Assembly (NCBI RefSeq): GCF_914271545.1
Contig: NZ_CAJZAH010000003.1
Location: 310,001-374,000 of the forward strand
Length of the DNA stretch: 64,000 bases
Direction of reading: 5' to 3'
Source of the DNA: Cupriavidus respiraculi
Lineage (GTDB): Bacteria > Pseudomonadota > Gammaproteobacteria > Burkholderiales > Burkholderiaceae
The notes under the pieces were generated by a model that saw nothing but the letters and a program-made list of their open reading frames with translations, was not told the DNA's origin and did no database searches. Position numbers and translations under genes: made by a program. Positions 32,012 through 44,886 of the stretch are shown here, one piece after another. Position 1 is the first letter of the stretch. Each line of letters begins with the position of its first letter.

Positions 32012-33100
32012 TTGAGCCTTACCGTTGACCAGGTTACCGAAGCCCTGCGAACCGTGATCGACCCCAACACGGGCCGGGATCTGGTGTCCTCGCGATCCGC
32101 CCGCAATATCCGCGTCGATGGCGGAGACGTCACATTGGACGTCGAGCTGGGCTATCCCGGCAAGAGCCAGCTGGATCCCATCCGCAAGCTGGTGATCGCG
32201 GCCCTTCGCCAGCTCCCGGGCGTCAGCAATGTCAGCGTCGCCGTCACCATGAACATCGTTGCGCATTCGGTGCAGCGTGGCGTGAAACTGCTTCCTGGCG
32301 TCAAGAACGTGATCGCCGTGGCCTCCGGCAAGGGCGGCGTCGGCAAATCGACCACCGCCGTGAACCTCGCCCTGGCCCTCGCCGCGGAAGGCGCACGCGT
32401 GGGCATGCTGGACGCCGATATCTACGGTCCGAGCCTGCCCATGATGCTGGGCATCGATGGCCGCCCGGAATCGGCCGATGGCCAGACCATGGAGCCGCTG
32501 GAAGGGCACGGCCTGCAGGCCAATTCCATCGGTTTCCTGATCGAACAGGACAACCCGATGGTCTGGCGCGGCCCCATGGTCACCTCGGCGCTGGAGCAAC
32601 TGCTGCGCCAGACCAACTGGAAGGATCTGGACTACCTGATCGTCGACATGCCCCCCGGCACCGGCGATATCCAGCTGACCCTGTCGCAGAAGGTGCCGGT
32701 CACCGGGGCCGTGATCGTGACCACGCCGCAGGACATCGCGCTGCTGGATGCGCGCAAGGGCCTGAAGATGTTCGAGAAGGTCGGCATTCCGATCCTCGGC
32801 ATCGTGGAGAACATGGCGGTCTATTGCTGCTCCAACTGCGGCCACGTCGAACATATCTTCGGCGAGGGCGGCGGCGAGCGCATGTGTGCTGAATATGGCG
32901 TGGACCTGCTGGGCAGCCTGCCGCTGACCCGCTCGGTGCGCGAGCAGGCCGATTCCGGCCGACCGACGGTGGTGGCCGAGCCGGATAGCCCGATCTCCGA
33001 GCTGTATCGCGGCATCGCCCGGAAGGTGGCCATCAAGGTCGCCGACAAGGCGCGCGATATGACCAGCAAGTTTCCGAGCATCGTGGTGCAGAACATCTGA
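32012..33100 (+). CDS. apbC: Iron-sulfur cluster carrier protein ApbC (Mrp)
   Basis: Cytoplasmic P-loop ATPase (362 residues) that carries and donates 4Fe-4S clusters. An N-terminal MIP18-like domain (about 1-90; VTEALRTVIDPNTGRDLVSS) precedes the deviant Walker A ASGKGGVGKSTTAVNLALAL (about 105-123), the DADIYGPSLP switch, DYLIVDMPPGTGDIQLTL and the cluster-binding cysteines in VYCCSNCGHVEHIFG near 271-275. The start is TTG: no ATG or GTG is available that keeps the conserved N terminus, and GGAG lies 8 bases upstream. DUF3305 begins 3 bp after its stop, so it appears to lead the operon for the Fe-S-rich formate dehydrogenase accessory proteins. Confidence 0.94.
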   Translation: MSLTVDQVTEALRTVIDPNTGRDLVSSRSARNIRVDGGDVTLDVELGYPGKSQLDPIRKLVIAALRQLPGVSNVSVAVTMNIVAHSVQRGVKLLPGVKNVIAVASGKGGVGKSTTAVNLALALAAEGARVGMLDADIYGPSLPMMLGIDGRPESADGQTMEPLEGHGLQANSIGFLIEQDNPMVWRGPMVTSALEQLLRQTNWKDLDYLIVDMPPGTGDIQLTLSQKVPVTGAVIVTTPQDIALLDARKGLKMFEKVGIPILGIVENMAVYCCSNCGHVEHIFGEGGGERMCAEYGVDLLGSLPLTRSVREQADSGRPTVVAEPDSPISELYRGIARKVAIKVADKARDMTSKFPSIVVQNI

Positions 33101-33103
33101 GCG

Positions 33104-33667
33104 ATGGCACAGCAGCAACCGCGGGGCCAGGATCCCGCAGCATTGTCGACGGCCGGCACCACGCCGGAGCCGGCCGGCCGTCCCTCGGTCACCATGGCCG
33201 TGGTGATGCGCAAGGTCGCGCTGGCCAGCCGCTGGCAGCCCTGGAAGTGGGAGCTGGAGGCCGTGCTGCCCGACCTGGGCCTGTTCGGCACCGTGCCGCA
33301 CTGTCTCCAGGACGATGAGGCCGGCGCGCGCTGGCTCCATCCCGGCTACGAGGTCACGCTGTTCTTCGACCAGGCCGAGGGGTATTACCTGAACCTGTCG
33401 TCCGCCGCGCCCTGCTGGTTCGTGCTGTGGCGCCTGGACGAGGAAAGTCCGGAAGAGGAGCGGCGCCCCCGCCCGATGGAAGTGTCGCTGTCGTACAACG
33501 AGGCGGGCCGCTGGCTCGACGCGGGCGAGACGGTCGAAAACGTGCCGCTTGCGGCCGAGCAGATCGCGTGGCTGCAGGCATATGTGGACCAGCACTACCG
33601 GCCCGAGCCGAAGCAGCGGCGCCGGCCGGAGTCCTTCAAGGCGCCGGGCGAGCGCGCCAAGTATTGA
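33104..33667 (+). CDS. DUF3305 domain protein
   Basis: A 187-residue soluble protein of unknown function (DUF3305), a family found mainly beside formate dehydrogenase genes. After a Gln/Pro-rich N terminus, a conserved core runs VMRKVALASRWQPWKWELEAVLPD through WLHPGYEVTLFFDQAEGYYLNLSSAAPCWFVLWR to VSLSYNEAGRWLDAGETVENVPL and ends with a basic C terminus. There is no signal peptide, membrane helix or metal-binding cysteine cluster. It lies 3 bp after apbC and 1 bp before the DUF3306 gene, so the three are tightly coupled. A role in maturation or delivery of the dehydrogenase is inferred from context only. Confidence 0.85.
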   Translation: MAQQQPRGQDPAALSTAGTTPEPAGRPSVTMAVVMRKVALASRWQPWKWELEAVLPDLGLFGTVPHCLQDDEAGARWLHPGYEVTLFFDQAEGYYLNLSSAAPCWFVLWRLDEESPEEERRPRPMEVSLSYNEAGRWLDAGETVENVPLAAEQIAWLQAYVDQHYRPEPKQRRRPESFKAPGERAKY

Positions 33668-33668
33668 G

Positions 33669-34307
33669 ATGAGCGATTCTTCCTTCCTGTCGCGCTGGTC
33701 GCGCCGCAAGGTCGCGGTGCGCGAGGGCAAGGCGGTGCCGAACGAGCCGCCGGCTCCGGTGGTCGCGACGCCGCCCCCCGCGCCTGTCGGCGAGCCCGCG
33801 CTGGCAGTGGAAGCCGCGCCCGCCGAACCGCTGCCCACGCTGGACGATGCCGCGCTGCTCAAGCCGGGCGACAATATTGCCCGCTTCGTGGCCAGCGGCG
33901 TGGACCAGGCCGTCAAGCGCGCGGCGCTCAAGACGCTGTTCGCCGATCCGCATTTCAACGTGATGGACGGTCTCGATATCTATATCGACGACTACAGCAA
34001 GTCCGAGCCCATCCCGATGGACGTGCTGCGCCGCATGCGTCAGTCCGAGGCGCTCGGCTTGTTCGAGCCCACCGACGAGGAGCGCGAAGCCGCGCGCGCC
34101 GCGCAGGCCGCCCTCGAGTCCGGGCCAGCCGGCAGCGAGATGGCCGCGGCCGAGCCGGCCGCCGAACCGGCCGATGTCGCCGAGCCGCAGGAGACGCCCG
34201 TGGAAGCCGCGCCGCCAGCGCTGGCGGCCAACGAGGCTGGCCCCGCCGCGGCCGGGACCGGCGACGAGTTGTCCGCCCCGCGGCCGGCTGCGGATAAACC
34301 TGCGTAG
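33669..34307 (+). CDS. DUF3306 domain protein
   Basis: A 212-residue protein of unknown function (DUF3306). The family's N-terminal signature is MSDSSFLSRWSRRKVAVREGK. A conserved core at about residues 60-130 includes NIARFVASGVDQAVKRAALKTLFADPHFNVMDGLDIYIDDY and DVLRRMRQSEALGLFE. The rest is a low-complexity Ala/Pro/Glu region that is probably disordered. It pairs with DUF3305 here, as the two families usually do, and both travel with formate dehydrogenase loci. The linker-plus-core architecture suggests an adaptor, but no activity is known. Confidence 0.85.
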   Translation: MSDSSFLSRWSRRKVAVREGKAVPNEPPAPVVATPPPAPVGEPALAVEAAPAEPLPTLDDAALLKPGDNIARFVASGVDQAVKRAALKTLFADPHFNVMDGLDIYIDDYSKSEPIPMDVLRRMRQSEALGLFEPTDEEREAARAAQAALESGPAGSEMAAAEPAAEPADVAEPQETPVEAAPPALAANEAGPAAAGTGDELSAPRPAADKPA

Positions 34308-34410
34308 CAACGGGGCCTTCGCGGCCCTACAATAGCCATCCCCACAAAACCGCCGGACCGCGGACCCGCCCTGAAGAGGCGGGCGGACGAACCGGCAAGC
34401 AGTAGTACCG

Positions 34411-36576
34411 ATGCCAACCCTGATCTGCAATTGCAACGACACGATGCCGCTTGACGGGGCGGCGCTGTCGGGCAAATCCCCCACTGGTTCCTCGACGACC
34501 CAGCCACCGACCAAGGTGCACCGCCTGCTGTGCCGCCGCGAGATCGGCGATTTCACCGCCGCGCTGGATGGCGCGGACGATGTAATCGTGGCCTGCACCC
34601 AGGAACGCCAGCTGTTTACCGAGGTCGCCGCCCAGACCGCCGCGCGCGGCGTGGTCACCGCGCCGGTGCGCTTCGTCAATATCCGGGAAACCGGCGGCTG
34701 GTCGCAAGGCGCGCGGCGCGATCCCAAGACCGCCAACGCCAAGATCGCCGCCTTGCTGGCGGCCGCGGCGCTGCCCGATCCGGAGCCGGTGCCGGTGGTC
34801 GACTACCGCTCGGGCGGCAATGTCCTGGTGCTGGGCCCGGCGGCCCGCGCGCTGCCGTGGGCGGCGAAGCTGGCCGAATCTCCGCTGGAAGTGTCGGTGC
34901 TGCTGACCGACGCCGGCAAGCCGCACTCGGGCGGCGCGGCGCAACCCGCCGAGCGCGCCTATCCGGTCTACAGCGGCCGGCTTGCCGGCCTGAACGGCTG
35001 GCTCGGCGCCTTCGAGGCGTCGTGGGAGACCGGGGCGGGGCGCGGCAATCCGATCGACCTGGACCTGTGCACACGCTGCAATGCCTGCATCGATGCCTGT
35101 CCCGAGGGCGCGATCGACTTCACTTATCAGATCGACCTGTCACGCTGTGATGCGAACCGTGCCTGCGTCAAGGCCTGCGGCGCCGCGGCCGCGATCGATT
35201 TCGACCGCCCGGCCGCCACCGTCACGGAGCGCTTCGACCTGGTCTTCGACCTGAACGACGCGCCCGCCTTTGCCATGCACGCGCCGCCGCAGGGTTACCT
35301 GCATGCGGGCGCCGACGCCGCGCGCCAGCAGGCGCTTGCGCTGACGCTGGTCCAGCTCGTGGGCGAATTCGAGAAGCCGAAATTCTTCCAGTACAAGGAA
35401 TCGATCTGCGCGCACGGCCGCAACCAGACCACCGGCTGCAGCGCCTGCATCGACATTTGCTCCGCCGAGGCCATCCGTTCGGACTGGCGCGACGGCAAGG
35501 GCCGCATCGAGGTCGCGCCGAACCTGTGCATGGGCTGCGGCGCCTGCACGACCGTCTGCCCGACCGGCGCCATCAGCTACGCCTATCCGAAGCCCGACTA
35601 TTTTGGCGAGCGGCTGCGCACGCTGCTCTCGACGTACCGCGCCGCCGGCGGGCGCGACGCCGTGCTGATGCTGCACGGCGAGGAATACGGCAACGCGCCG
35701 ATCCTGGCACTGGGCCGTGCCGCGCGCGCGGGCCAGGCCCAGGGCATTCCGGCCAACGTGATCCCCGTCCCGGTGTTCCATCCGGCCTCCGTCGGCCTGG
35801 AACTGTGGCTGGCCGCGCTGTGCTGGGGCGCGGACCGCGTCGCGGTGATGCTGACCGGCGACGAGGCCCCGCAATATCGCGCCGCGCTGGCCGAGCAGAT
35901 GGCGGTGGGACAAGCCATCCTGGAAGGCCTTGGGTATCGCGGCCAGTTCCTGTCGCTGGTCGAGGCGCCGGACGTCCCCACGCTCGACGTTCAGCTGGCG
36001 GCCCTGCGGCCCAACCGCGCCACCGTCGAGGTGGCGGGCTTCCGCGCCGCGGCGGCCAAGCGCGAAACCCTGGGCTTCGCGGTCGATCATCTGATGCGCC
36101 ACGCCCCCGTGCCGGCCATTAGCGTGCCGCTGCCCGCGGGCGCGCCGCTGGGCGCCGTCGCGGTCGATACGCAGCGCTGCACGCTGTGCATGGCATGCGT
36201 GGGTGCCTGTCCCTCGCAGGCCCTGCGCGACAACGCTGACCGCCCGGTGCTGGCCTTCCTCGAGCGCAATTGCGTGCAATGCGGCCTGTGCGAGAGCACC
36301 TGTCCGGAGGACGCCATCTCGCTGGTGCCCCGGCTGGTCGCCACCGAGGAGGCGCGCCGCGTGGTCACCCTCAACGAGACCAAGCCGTTCCATTGCATTC
36401 GCTGCGCCAAGCCGTTCGGCACCGCCCAGATGGTCAACGCGATGCTGGCCCGGCTGGCGAGCCACCCGGCCTTCGCCGGGGCGGCGGCGGACCGGCTGCG
36501 CATGTGCAGCGATTGCCGGGTCGTCGACATGGTCGAAAAAGACAGCGGCGCCGCCACCGGCGCGACCCTGCAGTAA
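34411..36576 (+). CDS. Polyferredoxin-like 4Fe-4S protein of the formate dehydrogenase locus
   Basis: A 721-residue cytoplasmic protein rich in Fe-S motifs. The N terminus (ICNCNDTMPLD, then DDVIVACTQERQLFTEVAAQ) resembles the start of heterodisulfide-reductase-A-like proteins. Near residue 220-255 lies CTRCNACIDACPEGAIDF plus a second cysteine set; near 340-390 CSACIDICSAEAI and CMGCGACTTVCPTGAI; near 590-640 CTLCMACVGACPSQAL and CVQCGLCESTCPEDAI; and a final CSDC near 702. That allows about five or six clusters. Residues about 400-560 carry no cluster motif and recall MvhD-like domains. It probably shuttles electrons or helps cluster supply; the function is unproven. TorD follows 59 bp later. 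Confidence 0.85.
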   Translation: MPTLICNCNDTMPLDGAALSGKSPTGSSTTQPPTKVHRLLCRREIGDFTAALDGADDVIVACTQERQLFTEVAAQTAARGVVTAPVRFVNIRETGGWSQGARRDPKTANAKIAALLAAAALPDPEPVPVVDYRSGGNVLVLGPAARALPWAAKLAESPLEVSVLLTDAGKPHSGGAAQPAERAYPVYSGRLAGLNGWLGAFEASWETGAGRGNPIDLDLCTRCNACIDACPEGAIDFTYQIDLSRCDANRACVKACGAAAAIDFDRPAATVTERFDLVFDLNDAPAFAMHAPPQGYLHAGADAARQQALALTLVQLVGEFEKPKFFQYKESICAHGRNQTTGCSACIDICSAEAIRSDWRDGKGRIEVAPNLCMGCGACTTVCPTGAISYAYPKPDYFGERLRTLLSTYRAAGGRDAVLMLHGEEYGNAPILALGRAARAGQAQGIPANVIPVPVFHPASVGLELWLAALCWGADRVAVMLTGDEAPQYRAALAEQMAVGQAILEGLGYRGQFLSLVEAPDVPTLDVQLAALRPNRATVEVAGFRAAAAKRETLGFAVDHLMRHAPVPAISVPLPAGAPLGAVAVDTQRCTLCMACVGACPSQALRDNADRPVLAFLERNCVQCGLCESTCPEDAISLVPRLVATEEARRVVTLNETKPFHCIRCAKPFGTAQMVNAMLARLASHPAFAGAAADRLRMCSDCRVVDMVEKDSGAATGATLQ

Positions 36577-36580
36577 GGTA

Positions 36581-36603
36581 CACGGCGCCTTTTGGGCGCC
36601 GTG
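36581..36603 (+). terminator. Hairpin between the polyferredoxin and torD genes
   Basis: CACGGCGCC / GGCGCCGTG (9 bp, 5-base loop) directly after the polyferredoxin stop. It is followed by TCCTGTTT rather than a clean T-run, so it may attenuate transcription or stabilise the upstream mRNA rather than stop it. Confidence 0.5.
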
Positions 36604-36635
36604 TCCTGTTTCCATCAGCACGCAACCATCACGAG

Positions 36636-37268
36636 ATGACCGATTTCCAGCCCATCCAGCTGACCGCCCCCGCGCCGACGGAGCAGGCCGAAGACACCGC
36701 CCGCGCCGATTTATACGGCCTGTTTGCCACGCTGTTCTACCGGGCGCCGGATGCGGCGATGCTGCACCATATCGCTGCGAACCGTGCGGCGGACGAGGAC
36801 GCGGCGACGCCGCTGGGGCATGCCTGGAACGGGCTGTGCGACGCGGCCTCGACCACGAGCGCGGCCGAGGCCGACGACGAATACCAGCGGCTGTTCGTCG
36901 GGGTCGGCAAGCCGGACGTCTTTCTCTATGGCTCGTATTACGTGGCGGGCTTTCTGAACGAGCGGCCGCTGGTGGCGCTGCGCGAGGATCTGGCGCGTTA
37001 CGGGCTGGAGCGCCACGACGATGTCAGCGAGACCGAGGACCATATCGCCACGCTATGCGAGGTGATGCGCTTCCTGGTGGCCGGCGACGATTTGTCGGTG
37101 TCCAACCTGGGCGAGCAGCAGCGTTTTTTTGCCCGTCATGTGCAGCCCTGGGCCGAGACGCTGTGCGACACCATCGCCAATCACCCGCAGGCGCGCTTCT
37201 ATGCGAGCGCGGCGGAATTGCTCAAGGCGTTCGTCGCGGTCGAGGCGGTGGCACTGGAAATGAATTGA
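36636..37268 (+). CDS. TorD/DmsD-family molybdoenzyme chaperone
   Basis: A 210-residue all-helical cytoplasmic chaperone of the TorD family, which binds Tat signal peptides of molybdoenzymes and helps cofactor loading before export. Visible signatures: ARADLYGLFATLFYRAPD near the N terminus, DEYQRLFVGVGKPDVFLYGSYY in the middle and DHIATLCEVMRFLVAGDD (the DH/EPxDH-equivalent hinge). The start at 36636 has GAG upstream (ACGAG). Its client is almost certainly the Tat-dependent formate dehydrogenase encoded just downstream. A 185-bp AT-rich gap separates it from that operon. Confidence 0.88.
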   Translation: MTDFQPIQLTAPAPTEQAEDTARADLYGLFATLFYRAPDAAMLHHIAANRAADEDAATPLGHAWNGLCDAASTTSAAEADDEYQRLFVGVGKPDVFLYGSYYVAGFLNERPLVALREDLARYGLERHDDVSETEDHIATLCEVMRFLVAGDDLSVSNLGEQQRFFARHVQPWAETLCDTIANHPQARFYASAAELLKAFVAVEAVALEMN

Positions 37269-37384
37269 TGCATCGCGGCGAGCGGTTAATCAAAATCGCG
37301 TCGCGCTGTCAAGGATTTGTGCAACGCGGAACGTTGCTCAAAGTAAGGAAAAACCCGTGGTTAGCATGGTCTTTCGTTTCATAT

Positions 37385-37441
37385 CAATCTAGAATACGCA
37401 AAACAATACATAACTAGATTGGTAATCGGTAGGTCATTACC
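37385..37441. promoter_or_regulatory. AT-rich inverted repeats upstream of the formate dehydrogenase operon
   Basis: CAATCTAG (37385-37392) and CTAGATTG (37414-37421) form an 8-bp inverted repeat with a 21-bp spacer, and the adjoining GGTAAT / ATTACC (37421-37426, 37436-37441) forms a second. The 37300-37440 stretch is markedly more AT-rich than its surroundings. This is where an operator and promoter for the operon would be expected; possible -10 boxes (TAGAAT at 37390, CATAAC at 37409) lack a clear -35. The regulator is not encoded in the window. Confidence 0.45.
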
Positions 37442-37453
37442 GAGGAGCCCCAC

Positions 37454-37663
37454 ATGAAAGAGAAACAGCATCGGGTCGCACGTCGTCATTTTCTGGCTGG
37501 CGCAGGCGTTGTTGCCGCCGCCGCCGGCACCGCGGCCCTGACCTCGCGCGTTCCGTCCGCGCCTACACCCGTGGCCTCCCTCCCGGAGGTCGAGCCCAGC
37601 GACAGCAAGGGCTACCGGGTTTCAGAACACATTCGAAAGTACTACCGAACGACGCTGGTGTGA
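37454..37663 (+). CDS. Small Tat-signal protein of the formate dehydrogenase region
   Basis: A 69-residue protein of a family known only from formate dehydrogenase loci (formate dehydrogenase region Tat-target protein). It carries a Tat-like signal: RVARRHFLAGAGVVAAAAGTAAL at residues 7-29, with the twin arginines at about residues 10-11. The mature part is about 35 residues and ends GYRVSEHIRKYYRTTLV, a conserved tyrosine/basic tail. A GAGGAG ribosome site lies 6 bases upstream of the ATG. It is the first gene of the dehydrogenase operon, 60 bp before the alpha subunit. It might occupy the Tat route together with the enzyme or be a small exported subunit; its role is unknown. Confidence 0.88.
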   Translation: MKEKQHRVARRHFLAGAGVVAAAAGTAALTSRVPSAPTPVASLPEVEPSDSKGYRVSEHIRKYYRTTLV

Positions 37664-37723
37664 TCGGCGCCGCGTTGATACGCGGCGTTTTTCCGCTTTC
37701 GTTCGACTCTGAGGTGAGACGAC

Positions 37724-40700
37724 ATGATCTTGACCCGCAAGCGTGCGGCGCAGGCCGGCGCATCCACGCAATCCGCTGACGCGCTGGTTGCCCGGGCACA
37801 TACCGCCGCAACGTCTTCTGCCGGCCGCCTGTCGGCGCGGCTGTCCGCCAGCCTGGCCGGCGCGATGCCGACCATGGACCGCCGCAGCTTCCTGAAGCGC
37901 TCGGGCATTGGCGTGGGCGCCGGCCTGGCGGCATCGCAGCTGAACCTGATCCGCAAGGCCGATGCGGCCGACGGCAAGGCCGCCGGCACCGGCGGCGGCG
38001 ATATCGTGGTGCGCCGCACGGTCTGCGGCCACTGCTCGGTGGGCTGCGCGGTCGATGCCGTGGTGCAGAACGGCGTGTGGGTACGGCAGGAGCCGGTGTT
38101 CGATTCGCCCATCAACATGGGTGCCCACTGCGCCAAGGGCGCGGCGCTGCGCGAGCACGGCCACGGCGAATACCGCCTGAAGTATCCGATGAAGCTGGTC
38201 AACGGCAAGTACCAGCGCATCAGCTGGGACCAGGCGCTCGACGAGATCACGGCGAAGATGAAGACAATCCGCCAGGAGACCGGCCCGGATTCGATGTTCT
38301 TCGTCGGCTCGTCCAAGCACAACAACGAGCAGTCGTATCTGCTGCGCAAGTGGGTGTCGTTCTTCGGCACCAACAATACCGACCACCAGGCGCGTATCTG
38401 CCACTCCACCACCGTGGCGGGCGTGGCGAATACCTGGGGCTACGGCGCGATGACGAACTCGTACAACGATATGCAGAACGCCAAGGCGGCGTTGTATATC
38501 GGTTCGAACGCGGCCGAAGCGCACCCCGTGTCGATGCTGCATCTGCTGCACGCCAAGGAAAACGGCTGCAAAGTGATCGTGGTCGATCCGCGCTACACCC
38601 GCACGGCCGCCAAGGCGGAACAGTACGTACGCATTCGCTCGGGCACCGATATCGCTTTCCTGTTCGGCGTGATGTACCACATCTTCCAGAACGGCTGGGA
38701 AGACAAGAAGTACATCAACGACCGCGTCTATGGCATGGACAAGGTCCGCGAGGAAGTCCTCGCCAAGTGGACCCCGGACAAGGTCGAGGAAGTCTGCGGC
38801 GTGCCCGAGGCGCAGGTGTTCAAGGTCGCCGAGACCATGGCCATGAACCGTCCCAGCACGCTGGTGTGGTGCATGGGCCAGACCCAGCACACGATCGGCA
38901 ATGCCATCGTGCGCGCGTCGTGCCTGGTGCAGCTGGCGCTGGGCAATATCGGCGTGTCCGGTGGCGGCGCGAATATCTTCCGCGGCCACGACAACGTGCA
39001 GGGCGCGACCGACGTCGGCCCGAACCCGGACTCGCTGCCGGGCTACTACGGCCTGGCGACCGGCGCCTGGAAGCACTACGCGGCGGTGTGGGACGTCGAC
39101 TACGAGTGGATCAAGAAGCAGTACGTCTCGCAGGCGATGATGGAGAAGTCCGGTACCACGGTATCGCGCTGGATCGACATCGTCACCGAGAAGAACGAGC
39201 TGATCGACCAGGACAACAACGTGCGCGGCGTGTTCTTCTGGGGCCATGCCCCGAACTCGCAGACGCGCGGCCTGGAAATGAAGAAGGCGCTGGACAAGCT
39301 GGACCTGCTGGTGGTGATCGACCCGTACCCGTCGGCGACCGCGGCCATGGCCAACATGCCGCCGGCCGAGGGCGACAAGGTCAATCCGAACCGCGCGGTC
39401 TACCTGCTGCCGGCCGCGACGCAGTTCGAGACCTCGGGTTCGTGCACCGCGTCCAACCGCTCGCTGCAATGGCGCGAGAAGGTCATCGAGCCGCTGTTCG
39501 AATCGATGCCCGATCACACGATCATGCAGGCCTTCGCCGACAAGCTCGGCTTTGGCAAGGAGCTGTCCAAGCACTACAAGATGATCGAGGTCAAGCGCGC
39601 GGGCCGCACCTGGGCCGAGCCCGAGGTGGAATCGATCCTGCGGGAGATCAACCGCTCGAACTGGACCATCGGCTACACCGGCCAGTCGCCGGAGCGCCTG
39701 AAGGCCCATATGCGCAACATGCATATGTTCGACGTGAAGACGCTGCGCTGCAAAGGCGGCAAGGACGCGGCCACGGGCTATGACATCACGGGCGACTACT
39801 TCGGGCTGCCGTGGCCGTGCTACGGCACGCCGGAACTGAAGCACCCGGGCTCGCCGAACCTGTACGACACCACCCGCCACGTGATGGACGGAGGCGGCAA
39901 CTTCCGCGCGAACTTCGGCGTGGAGCGCGAGGGCGTGTCGCTGCTGGCCGAGGACGGCTCGCATTCCGTGGGCGCCGAGATCACGACCGGCTATCCCGAA
40001 TTCGACCACGTGCTGCTGAAGAAGCTGGGCTGGTGGGACGAACTCACCGACGCCGAGAAGAAGGCCGCGGAAGGCAAGAACTGGAAGACCGACCTGTCCG
40101 GCGGCATCCAGCGCGTCGTCATGAAGAACCATGGCTGCCATCCGTTTGGCAACGCCAAGGCGCGTGCCGTGGTGTGGAACTTCCCCGATGCAATCCCGCA
40201 GCACCGGGAGCCGCTGTACTCGACGCGACCCGACATGGTCGCCAAGTACCCGACCCACGACGACAAGATGGCGTTCTGGCGCCTGCCGACGCTGTACAAG
40301 TCGGTGCAGCAGCGCAACATCGAGAACAAGCTCTATGAGAAATTCCCGATCATCCTGACGTCGGGCCGTCTGGTGGAGTACGAGGGCGGCGGCGAGGAAA
40401 CCCGTTCGAACCCGTGGCTGGCGGAGCTGCAGCAGGAGAACTTCGTCGAGGTGAATCCGCGCGCCGCCGCGGCCCGCGGCATCCGCAACGGCGACTACTG
40501 CTGGGTGTCGACGCCGACCGGTGCGCGCCTGAAGGTGCGCGCCCTGGTGACGGAGCGCGTCGGCGAGGACACGGCATTCATCCCGTTCCACTTCTCCGGC
40601 TGGTGGCAGGGCAAGGACATGAAGGACTACTACCCCGAAGGCGCGATGCCCATCGTGCGGGGCGAGGCGGTCAACACCGCCACAACCTACGGCTATGACT

Positions 40701-40759
40701 CGGTGACCATGATGCAGGAAACCAAGACCACCATTTGCCAGATCGAGCGTTTCGCATAA
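37724..40759 (+). CDS. fdhA: Formate dehydrogenase alpha subunit (molybdopterin, Tat-exported)
   Basis: Catalytic subunit (1011 residues) that oxidises formate to CO2 with a molybdenum or tungsten bis-pterin cofactor. A Tat motif MDRRSFLKRSGIGVG begins near residue 51, after an unusual 50-residue N-terminal stretch; internal ATGs at 37865 and 37874 could shorten this, but GAGGTGAG precedes 37724. The first 4Fe-4S site is CGHCSVGC with a later HCAKGAA. The metal ligand is Cys226 in QARICHSTTVAG, where E. coli FdnG has selenocysteine. The C-terminal pterin domain ends near GWWQGKDMKDYYPEGAMPI. The beta subunit starts 15 bp later. The mature enzyme faces the periplasm. Confidence 0.95.
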   Translation: MILTRKRAAQAGASTQSADALVARAHTAATSSAGRLSARLSASLAGAMPTMDRRSFLKRSGIGVGAGLAASQLNLIRKADAADGKAAGTGGGDIVVRRTVCGHCSVGCAVDAVVQNGVWVRQEPVFDSPINMGAHCAKGAALREHGHGEYRLKYPMKLVNGKYQRISWDQALDEITAKMKTIRQETGPDSMFFVGSSKHNNEQSYLLRKWVSFFGTNNTDHQARICHSTTVAGVANTWGYGAMTNSYNDMQNAKAALYIGSNAAEAHPVSMLHLLHAKENGCKVIVVDPRYTRTAAKAEQYVRIRSGTDIAFLFGVMYHIFQNGWEDKKYINDRVYGMDKVREEVLAKWTPDKVEEVCGVPEAQVFKVAETMAMNRPSTLVWCMGQTQHTIGNAIVRASCLVQLALGNIGVSGGGANIFRGHDNVQGATDVGPNPDSLPGYYGLATGAWKHYAAVWDVDYEWIKKQYVSQAMMEKSGTTVSRWIDIVTEKNELIDQDNNVRGVFFWGHAPNSQTRGLEMKKALDKLDLLVVIDPYPSATAAMANMPPAEGDKVNPNRAVYLLPAATQFETSGSCTASNRSLQWREKVIEPLFESMPDHTIMQAFADKLGFGKELSKHYKMIEVKRAGRTWAEPEVESILREINRSNWTIGYTGQSPERLKAHMRNMHMFDVKTLRCKGGKDAATGYDITGDYFGLPWPCYGTPELKHPGSPNLYDTTRHVMDGGGNFRANFGVEREGVSLLAEDGSHSVGAEITTGYPEFDHVLLKKLGWWDELTDAEKKAAEGKNWKTDLSGGIQRVVMKNHGCHPFGNAKARAVVWNFPDAIPQHREPLYSTRPDMVAKYPTHDDKMAFWRLPTLYKSVQQRNIENKLYEKFPIILTSGRLVEYEGGGEETRSNPWLAELQQENFVEVNPRAAAARGIRNGDYCWVSTPTGARLKVRALVTERVGEDTAFIPFHFSGWWQGKDMKDYYPEGAMPIVRGEAVNTATTYGYDSVTMMQETKTTICQIERFA

Positions 40760-40774
40760 GGGCGGGGAAAGACA

Positions 40775-41437
40775 ATGGCACGCATGAAATTTATCTGTGA
40801 CGCCGAGCGTTGCATCGAATGCAACAGCTGCGTCACCGCTTGCAAGAACGAGCACGAGGTTCCCTGGGGCGTCAACCGCCGCCGCGTGGTCACCGTCAAC
40901 GACGGCGTCCAGGGCGCGGAAAAGTCCATCTCGGTCGCGTGCATGCACTGTTCGGACGCGCCGTGCATGGCGGTCTGCCCGGTGGACTGCTTCTACCGCA
41001 CGGACGACGGCGTGGTGTTGCATGACAAGGACGTCTGCATCGGCTGCGGCTACTGCTCGTACGCCTGCCCGTTCGGCGCGCCGCAGTTCCCGAGCACCGG
41101 AACCTTCGGCGTGCGCGGCAAGATGGACAAATGCACGTTCTGCGCGGGCGGTCCGGAAGCCAACGGCTCCGAGGCCGAGTTCGACAAGTACGGCCGCAAC
41201 CGCCTCGCGGAAGGCAAGCTGCCACTGTGCGCGGAGATGTGCTCGACCAAGGCGCTGCTCGGCGGCGACGGCGATGTGATCGCCGACATCCTGCGCAATC
41301 GTGTGATCAAGCGCGGCACCGGCGGCGACGTGTTCGGCTGGGGCACCGCGTATGGCAAGCCGACCAACGGACAGGGCGCGGCCGTCAGCCCCGCACCGGC
41401 AGGCACCCCCGCGCCGACCGGAGGCCAGCCGTCATGA
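40775..41437 (+). CDS. fdh3B: Formate dehydrogenase beta subunit (four 4Fe-4S ferredoxin type)
   Basis: Electron-transfer subunit (220 residues) of the FDH3 type. Four cysteine groups follow the DMSO-reductase/FdnH pattern: CIECNSCVTACKNEHEVP (about 14-31), CMHCSDAPCMAVCP (near 60), CIGCGYCSYACPFGAPQFP (near 90) and CTFC plus CAEMC (near 120-150). It has no signal peptide, so it should be exported bound to the alpha subunit, and unlike E. coli FdnH it has no C-terminal membrane helix. The C terminus is a Pro/Ala/Gly tail. Its TGA overlaps the ATG of the small lipoprotein gene by four bases. Confidence 0.93.
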   Translation: MARMKFICDAERCIECNSCVTACKNEHEVPWGVNRRRVVTVNDGVQGAEKSISVACMHCSDAPCMAVCPVDCFYRTDDGVVLHDKDVCIGCGYCSYACPFGAPQFPSTGTFGVRGKMDKCTFCAGGPEANGSEAEFDKYGRNRLAEGKLPLCAEMCSTKALLGGDGDVIADILRNRVIKRGTGGDVFGWGTAYGKPTNGQGAAVSPAPAGTPAPTGGQPS

Positions 41438-41667
41438 AAGCCACCGTCCTGATGCTGCTCGCTGGCGGCGCGATGGCGCTCGCCGGCTGTGGAGAAAAGC
41501 CGCAGACCATCAGCGCCTCGCACAAGAAGTCCGATGCGCAGTCGTGGCAGGGCGCGCCCAACGATCCCTATGTGGTGAAGGGGTGGACGGCGGGCGACCA
41601 GACCAGCTGGCACAACCAGATCCGCGAGCGCAACCAGTACCAGAACGAATACAAGCGGATCCAATGA
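41434..41667 (+). CDS. Small lipoprotein embedded in the formate dehydrogenase operon
   Basis: A 77-residue protein with a clear lipoprotein signal: MKATVLMLLAGGAMALAGC, the modified cysteine at residue 19. The mature 59 residues are polar (GEKPQTISASHKKSDAQSW, then GAPNDPYVVKGWTAGDQTSW and a charged IRERNQYQNEYKRIQ end). I do not recognise the family. It overlaps the beta gene by 4 bases (ATGA) and precedes the gamma gene by 70 bp, so it is very likely made with the enzyme. It may be an extra small subunit or tether at the periplasmic membrane face; this is inference. Confidence 0.82.
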   Translation: MKATVLMLLAGGAMALAGCGEKPQTISASHKKSDAQSWQGAPNDPYVVKGWTAGDQTSWHNQIRERNQYQNEYKRIQ

Positions 41668-41737
41668 GGACCTGCCTGGACCCAGTCAGGATCCGTGGCG
41701 CCGGCCCAGCCGGTGTCCGCAGTCCGAAGGAGTGCAC

Positions 41738-42970
41738 ATGATCGCCAAGCTGATTCCGGCGCTGTCGGGCCGCATGGCCGCCGCCGCTTGCGCGCTGGCG
41801 CTGCTCGCGCCGGTGGGCGGCGCGCTGGCGCAATCGGAACCGGCGGCTCAGCCCGCGGTGAAGGAAGCTGCGCAGTCGGCGCCGCCGAAGACGATGCAGC
41901 CGACCGTCGGTTCGACGGCGGACACCAACAACCCGGCGACCCACCCGTCGCAGCCGCTGGCGGGCATCGCCTCGCAGAACATCTTCGACGTGCCGCAGCG
42001 GGATATCGCGGCCGAGGCCCGCGAGCAGCAGTCGCGCACCGTCACGCAGCCCGGCAACAATGCGCCGGTCTGGCGCGAGATCAATTCGGACCAGCGGCAC
42101 TACAGCAGCCTGCCGGACAAGGAAGCGGGCGTGCTGATCCAGCGTACCGGCCAGTCATGGCGCCTGTTCCGCAACGGCGTGATCACGGTGTGGGGTGGCT
42201 GGCTGCTGGTGCTGGTGCCTGCCGCCATCCTGGCGTTCTTCGTCTGGAAGGGCACCATCCCGCTGAAGTCGCCGCGCACCGGCCGCATGATCGAGCGCTT
42301 CACGCCGCTGGAGCGCATCGTCCACTGGACCATGGCGATCGCCTTCGTCGTGCTGGCGGTCTCGGGCATCGTGATGCTGTTCGGCAAGCATTTCCTGTTG
42401 CCGCTGATGGGGCACACGCTGTTCGGCTGGCTGACCTACCTCCTGAAGAACGTCCATAACCTGGTGGGGCCGGTCTTCACGCTGTCGCTGATCGTCGGCT
42501 TCGTCATCTTCGTGCGCGACAACCTGCCAAGCCGCGACGACGTGCGCTGGGTGACCAGCCTGGGCGGCATCGTGTCGGGCAAGCATGTGCCGAGCGGGCG
42601 CTTCAACGCCGGCGAGAAGGCATGGTTCTGGGGCGGCCTGTTCCTGCTGGGACTCATCGTGTCGGCCTCCGGCTGGGTGCTGGACATGATCGTGCCGGGC
42701 ATGGACTACTACCGTTCCACGATGCAGATCGCCAACGTGATCCACGGCATCGCCGCGATCGTGATGATGGCGATCTCCTTCGGCCATATCTACATGGGTA
42801 CGGTCGGCATGGAAGGCGCCTATCGCGCGATGCGCGACGGCTACGTGGACGAGGCCTGGGCCAAGGAGCACCACGAGTTGTGGTACGACGATATCAAGGC
42901 CGGCAAGATTCCGGCGCAGCGCACCGTTCCCCGCGACGGCACGGCGTCGGCGCGCACGACCGAGGCATGA
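41738..42970 (+). CDS. Formate dehydrogenase gamma subunit (cytochrome b556 type)
   Basis: Membrane anchor (410 residues) that passes electrons from formate oxidation to quinone through two b haems. A signal peptide (residues about 1-33, ending GGALAQS) precedes a periplasmic Pro/Ala-rich region to about residue 140, then a helix (GGWLLVLVPAAILAFFVWKG) and the four-helix haem bundle: PLERIVHWTMAIAFVVLAVSG, VHNLVGPVFTLSLIVGFVIF, WFWGGLFLLGLIVSASGWVL and IHGIAAIVMMAISFGHIYMG. The listed start is ATG at 41738, five bases after GGAG; a GTG two codons earlier is the frame's first start. The C terminus (EAWAKEHHELWYDD) is typical of the family. A UUCG terminator follows. Confidence 0.92.
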   Translation: MIAKLIPALSGRMAAAACALALLAPVGGALAQSEPAAQPAVKEAAQSAPPKTMQPTVGSTADTNNPATHPSQPLAGIASQNIFDVPQRDIAAEAREQQSRTVTQPGNNAPVWREINSDQRHYSSLPDKEAGVLIQRTGQSWRLFRNGVITVWGGWLLVLVPAAILAFFVWKGTIPLKSPRTGRMIERFTPLERIVHWTMAIAFVVLAVSGIVMLFGKHFLLPLMGHTLFGWLTYLLKNVHNLVGPVFTLSLIVGFVIFVRDNLPSRDDVRWVTSLGGIVSGKHVPSGRFNAGEKAWFWGGLFLLGLIVSASGWVLDMIVPGMDYYRSTMQIANVIHGIAAIVMMAISFGHIYMGTVGMEGAYRAMRDGYVDEAWAKEHHELWYDDIKAGKIPAQRTVPRDGTASARTTEA

Positions 42971-42993
42971 GCATCCCCGCGCCCTGAGCCAAG

Positions 42994-43013
42994 AGGGGCG
43001 CTTCGGCGCCCCT
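42994..43013 (+). terminator. UUCG-capped hairpin after the formate dehydrogenase gamma gene
   Basis: AGGGGCGC-TTCG-GCGCCCCT, a perfect 8-bp stem with a UUCG tetraloop, 23 bp past the gamma stop. It is followed by TCGTTCG rather than a solid T-run. It probably ends or attenuates the operon before the small periplasmic protein gene. Confidence 0.6.
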
Positions 43014-43051
43014 TCGTTCGCGGGCGCAACGACAATAACAAGGACCCTGAG

Positions 43052-43414
43052 ATGATCCGCACCCTCCTTACCGTCGCTCTGTCGCTCGGCAGCGCTGCCG
43101 CGCTGGCCAAGCTGCCCCCGCCCACCGAGGCCCAGCAGCTCAAGGCGGAGCAGGCCAAGGCCAAGACCGCCTGGTCGGACAAGGTCGCCGCCTACCAGCT
43201 GTGCCGCGCCCAGGAACGTGCCGCGGCACGCTATCTTGGCGGCATGAAGTCCAAGGGCAAGGACGTGCCGGCTCCGGTGCCGACCGCGCCGTGCGCGGAC
43301 CCGGGCCCGTTCGACGCACCGGCAGTGGCCGACGCGGCCAAGACCGCCGGCGGCCCCCTGACCGCCCCCGTCGGCGCGCCTTCCACCCAGAAGAGTTCGG
43401 CCGCGGCGCGCTGA
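43052..43414 (+). CDS. Small periplasmic protein of unknown function
   Basis: A 120-residue exported protein; I do not recognise the family. A signal peptide (MIRTLLTVALSLGSAAALAK) is followed by a charged, helical segment (PPPTEAQQLKAEQAKAKTAWSD to about residue 55) with one cysteine in YQLCRAQERAAARYL. A second cysteine follows in APCADPGPF, and the C-terminal third is a Pro/Ala/Gly tail. The two cysteines could form a disulfide in the periplasm. It lies between the dehydrogenase operon and sodC, 81 bp after the gamma stop, and may be expressed from read-through. Confidence 0.75.
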   Translation: MIRTLLTVALSLGSAAALAKLPPPTEAQQLKAEQAKAKTAWSDKVAAYQLCRAQERAAARYLGGMKSKGKDVPAPVPTAPCADPGPFDAPAVADAAKTAGGPLTAPVGAPSTQKSSAAAR

Positions 43415-43469
43415 GCGGGTGGATGGGCGGTACAATCCCCGCGGACAACACCGCGAGAGGAGGTTCTGC

Positions 43470-43991
43470 ATGAAACGCGTACTTTTCGGTCTGGCAATCG
43501 TGGGCACCCTGGCTGGCTGCTCGCACATGGGCATGGGCGGCGGTGAATCGGCGTCGGCCAAGCTGGCACCCAAGAGCGGCTCGGCCACGCAAGGCACGGT
43601 GACGTTCACCCAGCATGGCGACCATGTCATGGTGAAGGCCGAGGTGACAGGCCTCTCGCCCAACAGCGAGCATGGCTTCCACGTGCACGAGAAGGGCGAC
43701 TGCTCGGCACCGGACGCGATGAGCGCAGGCGGCCACTTCAATCCCGGCGGCAAGCCGCACGGCTCCAGTTCCGCTCCCGAACACCACGCCGGCGACATGC
43801 CGAACCTGAAGGCCGACGCCAACGGGCGGGCCCAAGCCACGTTCCACCTGACCGGCGTCACGGTGGCACCCGGACCGAACAGCGTCGTGGGCCGCGCCGC
43901 GGTGGTCCACAAGGACCCCGACGACTACAAGACCCAGCCCACCGGCAACTCCGGCGGCCGCATCGCCTGCGGCGTCATCGCCAAGTCCTGA
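43470..43991 (+). CDS. sodC: Cu,Zn superoxide dismutase (lipoprotein)
   Basis: Periplasmic Cu,Zn superoxide dismutase (173 residues) that removes superoxide. The N-terminal signal ends in a lipobox (GTLAGC, Cys16-17 region), so the enzyme is probably lipid-anchored. Metal ligands are seen in HGFHVHEKGDC (two copper histidines and a disulfide cysteine), GGHFNPGGKPHG and HHAGDMPNL (zinc site), VVHKDPDDY (copper histidine) and the second disulfide cysteine in GGRIACGVI. GAGAGGAGG is an excellent ribosome site. It sits between the formate dehydrogenase genes and fdhD. Confidence 0.94.
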   Translation: MKRVLFGLAIVGTLAGCSHMGMGGGESASAKLAPKSGSATQGTVTFTQHGDHVMVKAEVTGLSPNSEHGFHVHEKGDCSAPDAMSAGGHFNPGGKPHGSSSAPEHHAGDMPNLKADANGRAQATFHLTGVTVAPGPNSVVGRAAVVHKDPDDYKTQPTGNSGGRIACGVIAKS

Positions 43992-44055
43992 CGGGCATCG
44001 GACCGGCTCGCCGCCGGTCCCTCCCTTTCCGGGCGAAGTCCTTTTCCACTTTCCC

Positions 44056-44886
44056 ATGCCTCTGCGTCCCGAACTCACCCAAGCCGCCGTTCCGCTGATC
44101 GAAGAGGTCGAAGTGGTCGACGAGCAGGGTCGCGTGCGCTCGGCATGGCTGCCCGGCGAGCGCCCGCTGACGGTCTACCTGGACAAGCGCGAACTGGTCA
44201 CGCTGATGACGCTGGGCGGCGCGCCCGAGGCCCTGGTGCTGGGCTATCTGCGCAACCAGCGGCTGGTCGAATCGATCGAGGACATCGCCGCGATCCAGGT
44301 CGATTGGGAAACGGAATCGGCCGCGGTCACCACGCGCGGCGGCGTGGACCGCATCGAGGAGCGCACCTCGCGCAAGGTCGTCACCACCGGCTGCGGGCAG
44401 GGCACCGTGTTCGGCTCGCTGCTCGACGAGGTGGACAGCATCCGCCTGCCGGACGACGCGATGCTGGACCAGGACACGCTGTACAGCATCGTCGATACCA
44501 TCCGGCTCCAGCAGTCGGTCTACAAGCAGGCCGGCTCCGTCCACGGCTGCGCGCTGTTCCAGGGACGCGAGCTGCTGATGTTCGTCGAGGATGTCGGCCG
44601 CCACAACGCGGTGGACGCCATCGCGGGGCGCATGTGGCTCGAGGGCATGGGCGGCGGCGACAAGATTTTCTACACGACCGGCCGTCTGACCTCGGAGATG
44701 GTCATCAAGGGCGCGCAGATGGGCATCCCATTCCTGCTCTCGCGCTCTGGCGTGACGCAGATGGGCTACGAGATGGCCCGGCGCGTGAACCTGACGCTGT
44801 TTGCCCGCTGCACCGGCAAGCACTTCCTGCTCTATACCGGCCGCCAGCGCTTCCGCCACAACCAGGCGCAGGCCGCGGTGGCCTGA
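44056..44886 (+). CDS. fdhD: Formate dehydrogenase accessory sulfurtransferase FdhD
   Basis: FdhD (276 residues) passes sulfur from a cysteine desulfurase to the molybdenum cofactor of formate dehydrogenases, a step needed for activity. Family features: LTVYLDKRELVTLMTLGGAPEAL, the conserved loop TRGGVDRIEE...VTTGCGQGTVFG holding Cys113, HGCALFQGRELLMFVEDVGRHNAVDAIAGRM and SRSGVTQMGYEMARRVNLTL. In E. coli the loop carries a CxxC pair; here the position after Cys113 reads GQG, leaving one cysteine. The gene lies 64 bp after sodC and ends the formate dehydrogenase block. Confidence 0.93.
   Translation: MPLRPELTQAAVPLIEEVEVVDEQGRVRSAWLPGERPLTVYLDKRELVTLMTLGGAPEALVLGYLRNQRLVESIEDIAAIQVDWETESAAVTTRGGVDRIEERTSRKVVTTGCGQGTVFGSLLDEVDSIRLPDDAMLDQDTLYSIVDTIRLQQSVYKQAGSVHGCALFQGRELLMFVEDVGRHNAVDAIAGRMWLEGMGGGDKIFYTTGRLTSEMVIKGAQMGIPFLLSRSGVTQMGYEMARRVNLTLFARCTGKHFLLYTGRQRFRHNQAQAAVA

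Follow-up and report, generated by a model that had tools for sequence, protein, structure and literature searches.

We analysed a 64,000-nucleotide stretch of the Cupriavidus respiraculi genome (hereafter the window), which carries a gene cluster for an FDH3-type formate dehydrogenase (FDH). The recurring kit in this cluster comprises nine genes in two units: unit 1 encodes a DUF3305 protein, a DUF3306 protein, a polyferredoxin and a TorD-type chaperone, and unit 2 encodes a mini-protein with a twin-arginine translocation (Tat) signal, the alpha and beta subunits, a lipoprotein and the gamma subunit (Table 1). We infer that this is a conserved set for a membrane-bound, exported, formate-oxidising enzyme. 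The same content and gene order recur, far beyond chance, not only within the window's order but also across further orders of its class and further classes of its phylum. The reading we favour, and consider reasonably probable, is that unit 1 would be a trans-acting cytoplasmic maturation quartet in place of FdhE and the mini-protein a Tat-exported small partner, with biochemical steps and binding partners as proposed below. The enzyme type FDH3 and its gene neighbourhood are already known, the latter having been printed in 2015. New here are the complete pairing of DUF3305 with FDH3 in our sample, the HdrA origin of the polyferredoxin, the complementary distribution of FdhE, the shared quartet and a confident DUF3305 model with no PDB match.

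The kit genes were followed in species-level draws of Pseudomonadota genomes (299 from the phylum, 160 from the window's order) and in 14 control genomes. DUF3305 was found in 54 of the 299 genomes and an FDH3 beta subunit above the family cut-off in 54, and the two sets are identical (Fisher p ~8e-61; this and the statistics below ignore kinship). No control genome held DUF3305 or FDH3 beta above cut-off (0/14). An initial annotation of this DNA had proposed that DUF3305, DUF3306, the polyferredoxin and the mini-protein are dedicated to FDH3, and the co-occurrence count bears this out: far from occurring as often without FDH3 as with it, DUF3305 was confined to FDH3 genomes among these 299. 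Within the order, DUF3305 was present in 32 genomes, DUF3306 in 31 and FDH3 beta above cut-off in 31, and every one of these 31 FDH3 genomes carries DUF3305. The only order genome with DUF3305 and no FDH3 beta (G153) has a contig ending after DUF3306 and a gamma-like open reading frame (ORF). A broken assembly, G125, showed no DUF3306 and no full mini-protein match; a partial DUF3305 match containing one stop sits at the edge of one contig, and the alpha gene stands at the start of another.

We also examined 80 named loci, the best 80 of 582 and biased towards the window's order. More than 9 kb upstream of beta was included in 56 of them, 16 of which had no DUF3305 there. DUF3305 lies elsewhere in 15 of these 16 genomes (in one genome as a partial match at the edge of a contig, in another as a match split in two), and the sixteenth locus opens within DUF3306, close to the start of its contig. 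The role of dedicated FDH3 partner is supported for DUF3305, DUF3306, the polyferredoxin, the TorD-type protein and the Tat mini-protein. The association has been described for TorD/DmsD-fdhGHI operons, where DUF3305, DUF3306, 'fdh tat' and 4Fe-4S proteins accompany the chaperone and fdh genes (Bay et al. 2015; PMC4464133). That paper, cited like the others below from the sections open to us, gives the DUF pair for 60% of dmsD-fdhGHI operons and calls the DUFs putative membrane proteins. By contrast, the pairing of DUF3305 with FDH3 beta was complete in our 299 genomes and the DUF proteins have no transmembrane-like segments.

All 28 whole-cluster loci of the order hold DUF3305, DUF3306, polyferredoxin, torD, mini-protein, alpha, beta, lipoprotein and gamma; the gene-table hidden Markov models were built from these loci, so the order counts lean towards the order. 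Group labels (beta for the window's order, gamma for the rest of the class, alpha for other classes) came from kinship and locus plan. Among 40 stretches from across the phylum, DUF3305 was found in 40, DUF3306 in 39, torD in 40 and the polyferredoxin in 38. The arrangement varied. Of 28 stretches belonging to other classes (L178-L205), 25 have the polyferredoxin and DUF3305 on opposite strands and one has them on the same strand; in two no polyferredoxin was found. In L145, L152, L161 and L164 the orientation of DUF3305 is opposite to that of beta, and in L102, L117 and L146 its position is downstream. Units 1 and 2 are separable: they are parted, inverted or moved, and both are kept.

The quartet can also be shared. 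Two loci (L209, L245) have a single quartet ahead of two mini-A-B-C units, and another (L243) is a lone mini-A-B-C unit ~410 kb from its genome's DUF3305 gene. The quartet can therefore serve in trans, whereas the mini-protein stays with the enzyme. Genome G126 has a second FDH3 locus (L246, 9766-10423) that looks broken, its beta gene interrupted by a stop and its alpha match weak. Between torD and the mini-protein, L113 (2875-6383) and L076 (10701-14203) carry a Cache-HAMP sensor histidine kinase and a sigma54-type response regulator by Pfam, perhaps a dedicated formate or redox switch. Other named loci have a similar-sized gap at this place.

We also checked the distribution of FdhE. E. coli-type FDH-N and FDH-O follow the same plan as the kit, with a Tat-exported alpha, an Fe-S beta, a cytochrome b gamma, FdhD and a dedicated maturation factor. 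They differ in being mostly in-frame TGA (selenocysteine) enzymes with FdhE (TIGR01553, PF04216). FdhE was present in 45 of the 299 genomes and overlapped with FDH3 in two, against 8.1 expected (p 0.010). An FdnG-type alpha was found in 42 of the 45 FdhE genomes, all of which were tested, versus one of the 37 FDH3 genomes tested (out of 54). Neither FdhE nor FdnG was found in the window's genome. The respiratory FDHs of our sample fall into two kits with different finishing machinery, although the split is not absolute. Because one quartet serves two enzymes and FdhE is usually absent, maturation is the best reading for the cytoplasmic genes.

The window's enzyme belongs to the FDH3 type, with a beta subunit above the NF038355 cut-off and a Cys-type, Tat-signal alpha homologous to chain A of PDB 9VAP. 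The alpha match to 9VAP_A spans 51-1009 (1284 bits) and beta matched 9VAP_B at 318 bits. The closest named FDH3 beta, among the best 80 of 582, is from Cupriavidus cauae (98% identity, residues 1-200). Of 146 scanned alpha ORFs, 140 have a Cys-type active-site motif, and the other six were without the searched motif. The likeness to 9VAP lies in alpha and beta homology and the active-site Cys; a difference is that our PDB searches found no 9VAP chain matching the mini-protein, lipoprotein, gamma or DUF3305. The sole PDB match of gamma was E. coli FdnI (1KQF).

S. oneidensis FdhAB (9VAP), the only close relative with a solved structure, has been reported as a tungsten FDH that tolerates oxygen (PMC13397495). 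Together with the prevalence of Cys-type alpha, this lends something to the idea that the quartet, rather than acting in general maturation, sets the choice of tungsten (W) versus molybdenum (Mo) or protects the cofactor from oxygen during insertion. However, for another FDH in M. extorquens, W incorporation needs moeA1, mobB and fdhD among the genes tested, and DUF3305, the polyferredoxin and TorD are unmentioned in the sections of that paper open to us (PMC13197769). We consider a metal-selecting or oxygen-protecting quartet improbable.

The Tat mini-protein scores above the TIGR02811 cut-off and sits directly upstream of alpha. The family is already named by NCBI and is uncharacterised. The mini-protein was matched in 37 of the 40 phylum loci, and its C-terminal tail motif was seen in most of 136 matches. 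In two loci labelled f86 that had no match to the mini-protein model (L188, L190), a divergent twin-arginine protein with an aromatic tail is encoded just upstream of alpha; in L195, also f86 and like these two deviating, the alpha matches are split in two pieces. The lipoprotein matched no Pfam or NCBIfam family at E<=0.001. It was found in nine of the 40 phylum loci, namely all five of the window's order and, as weak matches, four of the other 35. It is mainly betaproteobacterial and not a general kit part. The initial annotation had counted it in a module for FDH3 maturation and electron transfer; that membership does not hold generally, whilst a maturation role would remain the best reading for the cytoplasmic genes. 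The small periplasmic protein, with no Pfam family at E<=0.001, occurs in 22/28 order loci, 6/40 phylum loci and 74/80 named loci, and fdhD lies near the cluster in 20/28, 17/40 and 72/80, respectively.

Next, the cytoplasmic proteins were compared with known structures and families. DUF3305 gave a confident AlphaFold2 model (pLDDT 90.6) for which no PDB match was found. The TorD-type protein reached 51 bits against PRK04976 (cut-off 132) and passed PF02613, and is thus TorD/DmsD-type, not TorD proper. In the polyferredoxin model (pLDDT 88.0), residues 1-408 align to HdrA (VIA-align), and the protein's profile matched stretches of 8rvu_a at independent E-values of 7.8e-8 and 1.4e-12. It has the N-terminal domain and the C-terminal ferredoxin domain of HdrA and lacks the GxGxxG motif and a full flavin adenine dinucleotide (FAD) domain: exact GxGxxG occurs at the flavin-motif place in none of 26 aligned polyferredoxins, and the FAD region is shortened, with 183 aligned residues spread over a span of 446. 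The protein's three ferredoxin stretches contain 7, 8 and 8 Cys, from which up to six [4Fe-4S] clusters are predicted. The middle (~410-570) was barely covered by the structure comparison. PF02662 scored 12.6 bits there (E 0.14 for the window stretch; cut-off 22.3) and reached E<=0.1 in three of the 26 polyferredoxins (best 0.0044), so FlpD/MvhD is a resemblance only. Against the HycF family NF009053 the protein scored 66.6 bits (cut-off 204), with structural likeness confined to 577-709. By profile and model, the polyferredoxin is HdrA-derived with a HycF-like C-terminus, an origin absent from the initial annotation, and we do not file it as HdrA. Shorter polyferredoxins of 548-579 amino acids occur in L067, L077, L078, L083 and L084; their first ~90 residues are missing or unalignable and the first ferredoxin stretch is absent, with the later ferredoxins and the CxxC pair kept.

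The polyferredoxin resembles part of a methanogen-type electron-transfer protein put to a new use. It differs from methanogen HdrA and formate hydrogenlyase HycF in that the modules are fused in one protein beside an exported enzyme. HdrA- and HycF-like modules occur in complexes containing FDHs (titles of 7bkb-7bke, 7z0t). This prompts the guess, of rather low probability, that electrons pass between the polyferredoxin and the folded alpha-beta pair ahead of export. Alternatively, the polyferredoxin with DUF3305/DUF3306 could form a working electron branch between the cytoplasmic face of gamma and a cytoplasmic acceptor, like the HdrA-based modules beside methanogen FDH. The same complexes, and the presence of the polyferredoxin in 38/40 phylum loci and 28/28 whole order clusters, are consistent with such a branch. 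It sits poorly with the single quartet for two enzyme units, with a TorD-type chaperone in unit 1 and with the absence of exact GxGxxG from that place in all 26 proteins, even though GxGxxA is found in four, and it leaves the mostly absent FdhE unexplained. We consider a working branch unlikely.

In the maturation reading, unit 2 would make a Tat-exported, cysteine-type Mo/W formate dehydrogenase, with electrons predicted to pass from formate through the beta Fe-S clusters and the gamma hemes to quinone. Unit 1 would act in trans as a cytoplasmic quartet, filling the place that FdhE has at FDH-N/FDH-O enzymes. The TorD-type protein would hold alpha, FdhD would sulfurate the cofactor, and the polyferredoxin and DUF3305/DUF3306 would finish or check the redox centres of folded alpha-beta before Tat export. 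The Tat mini-protein, which accompanies enzyme copies, probably serves as a small subunit or as an anchor in the membrane, and is predicted to bind alpha-beta via its conserved C-terminus. More tentatively, the polyferredoxin may be an HdrA and HycF-like chimera, probably flavin-less, that docks on folded cytoplasmic alpha-beta and pushes or pulls electrons before export, as an electrical quality check of a Tat substrate or its activation by reduction; the docking factors would be DUF3306 and DUF3305, the latter possibly with a new fold. Redox-based proofreading of this kind is not known to us from any Tat system, although no search was aimed at it.

Several observations weigh against the maturation reading. 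FdhE and FDH3 coexist in G353 and G379, and for S. oneidensis MR-1 both fdnG and fdhE are listed in addition to a second FDH cluster (PMC2535785). A second enzyme copy, L244, has no mini-protein seen, and within the stretches examined L190 is without DUF3306 and polyferredoxin and L193 without polyferredoxin. GxGxxA is kept at the HdrA flavin-motif place in four of the 26 polyferredoxins, and flavin loss is therefore not certain. S. oneidensis FdhAB was expressed as a dimer and was active (PMC13397495); if the host had no quartet, alpha-beta activity does not depend on it. Knockouts of fdw, fdh and fdo in C. necator H16 had no significant fitness effect, fdoHI not being quantified (PMC11540253); on formate the soluble enzyme dominates in C. 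necator (PMC11540253). Our literature search, with most subscription papers and supplements outside its reach, gave no biochemical or genetic study of DUF3305, DUF3306 or the polyferredoxin.

The active dimer and the C. necator knockouts would also fit conserved passengers, that is, genes inherited with the FDH3 operon but dispensable for the enzyme. Against this, both units are retained when parted, inverted or moved, DUF3305 and FDH3 beta share the same 54 of 299 genomes, and DUF3305 persists in 15 of the 16 genomes where it is not beside the enzyme in the stretch examined. Deletion of Shewanella SO4508 and SO4512, which share the mini-protein's position only, also caused a growth defect (PMC3623810). 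We regard mere passengers as very improbable.

In that study, in-frame deletions of SO4508, SO4509, SO4512 and SO4513 moderately lowered growth rate, with no further drop when all four were removed; SO4508 and SO4512 are described as formate dehydrogenase accessory proteins and putative Tat substrates (PMC3623810). From gene position alone, these two would be mini-proteins, and SO4504, SO4505 and SO4506 would likewise correspond to DUF3305, DUF3306 and the polyferredoxin. SO4504, SO4505, SO4506 and SO4509 decrease jointly in a mutant lacking normal regulation (PMC2535785; a regulator mutant), and fdh-1 (SO4508-4511) and fdh-2 (SO4512-4515) respond oppositely to EtrA loss (PMC3078092). In co-culture, fdhX, fdhT, fdhA and fdhB go up (PMC4462164), and FdhX-2 is reported as periplasmic and SO_4504 as cytoplasmic (PMC4837345). 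The cluster had initially been put forward as an undescribed system. This is not upheld in full because the gene association is published (PMC4464133), the Tat protein is the named TIGR02811 and two Shewanella genes at the mini-protein position have already been deleted (PMC3623810).

All 13 genes named by the initial annotation are present in the same-strand arrangement it gave (Table 1), with the DUF3306 ATG beginning one base past the DUF3305 stop. Its grouping of apbC and sodC with the system failed, as both keep a housekeeping place rather than tracking FDH genes. In the FDH-less relatives L215 (same genus) and L217-L219 (family), the genes run apbC, sodC, dcd; ompA flanks apbC on its other side, joined by metG where the stretch extends far enough. 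In L222, L223 and L224 apbC adjoins dcd, and L220, another FDH-less relative, had no dcd or sodC match beside apbC within the 4 kb examined. At E<=1e-40, apbC was single-copy in all 10 searched genomes of the order, FDH-less ones included. Only two of the 28 whole order clusters have apbC and four have sodC. Thus, apbC and sodC are housekeeping neighbours, not kit parts. Since the FDH-less relatives keep apbC-sodC-dcd, the window's FDH block was most likely inserted between apbC and sodC; with fdhD between sodC and dcd, the complete FDH3 kit most likely inserted around sodC within this string. The nine f93 genomes searched (L178-L181, L183, L198, L201, L204, L205) have two or three apbC copies each, one within the stretch around the FDH3 cluster and in several adjoining the polyferredoxin, which may be a dedicated ApbC paralogue.

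Table 1. Genes in and around the FDH3 cluster of the window.
Gene	Coordinates	Strand	Assignment and remarks
apbC	32012-33100	+	NF008669, 439.7 bits; Fe-S carrier; flanking housekeeping gene, not a kit member in this lineage
DUF3305 protein	33104-33667	+	PF11749, 175 bits (cut-off 25); 187 aa; no transmembrane-like segment
DUF3306 protein	33669-34307	+	PF11748, 117.4 bits (cut-off 25); 212 aa; no transmembrane-like segment
Polyferredoxin	34411-36576	+	HdrA-like 1-408, weakly FlpD/MvhD-like middle, HycF-like ferredoxin and CxxC/CxxC at 577-709
TorD/DmsD-type chaperone (torD-like)	36636-37268	+	PF02613, 103.4 bits
Tat mini-protein, 69 aa	37454-37663	+	TIGR02811 formate_TAT, 59.6 bits (cut-off 48.45); RR signal, conserved C-terminal motif
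FDH3 alpha	37724-40759	+	Cys-type, with a Tat signal of its own; closely related to PDB 9VAP_A
FDH3 beta	40775-41437	+	NF038355 FDH3_beta, 337 bits (cut-off 240); 18 Cys; no transmembrane-like segment
Lipoprotein, 77 aa	41434-41667	+	Unnamed family; lipobox; tail GD...W...I..R...QNEY.R
FDH gamma (cytochrome b)	41732-42970	+	TIGR01583, PF01292; extra N-terminal region and transmembrane-like segment (hydropathy)
Small periplasmic protein	43052-43414	+	Mainly window's order; optional
sodC, Cu/Zn superoxide dismutase	43470-43991	+	PF00080; flanking housekeeping gene, not a kit member
fdhD, FDH sulfur-transfer protein	44056-44886	+	PF02634; functional partner, often close to cluster

The FDH3 relative S. 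oneidensis FdhAB has been presented as an enzyme for electrodes that reduces CO2 and tolerates oxygen (PMC13397495). Should enzymes of this type depend on a quartet of their own rather than on FdhE, producing them without the quartet may yield poorly loaded enzyme, and the gene list tells what to add. Two DUF families and an HdrA-derived protein also gain a concrete, testable job.

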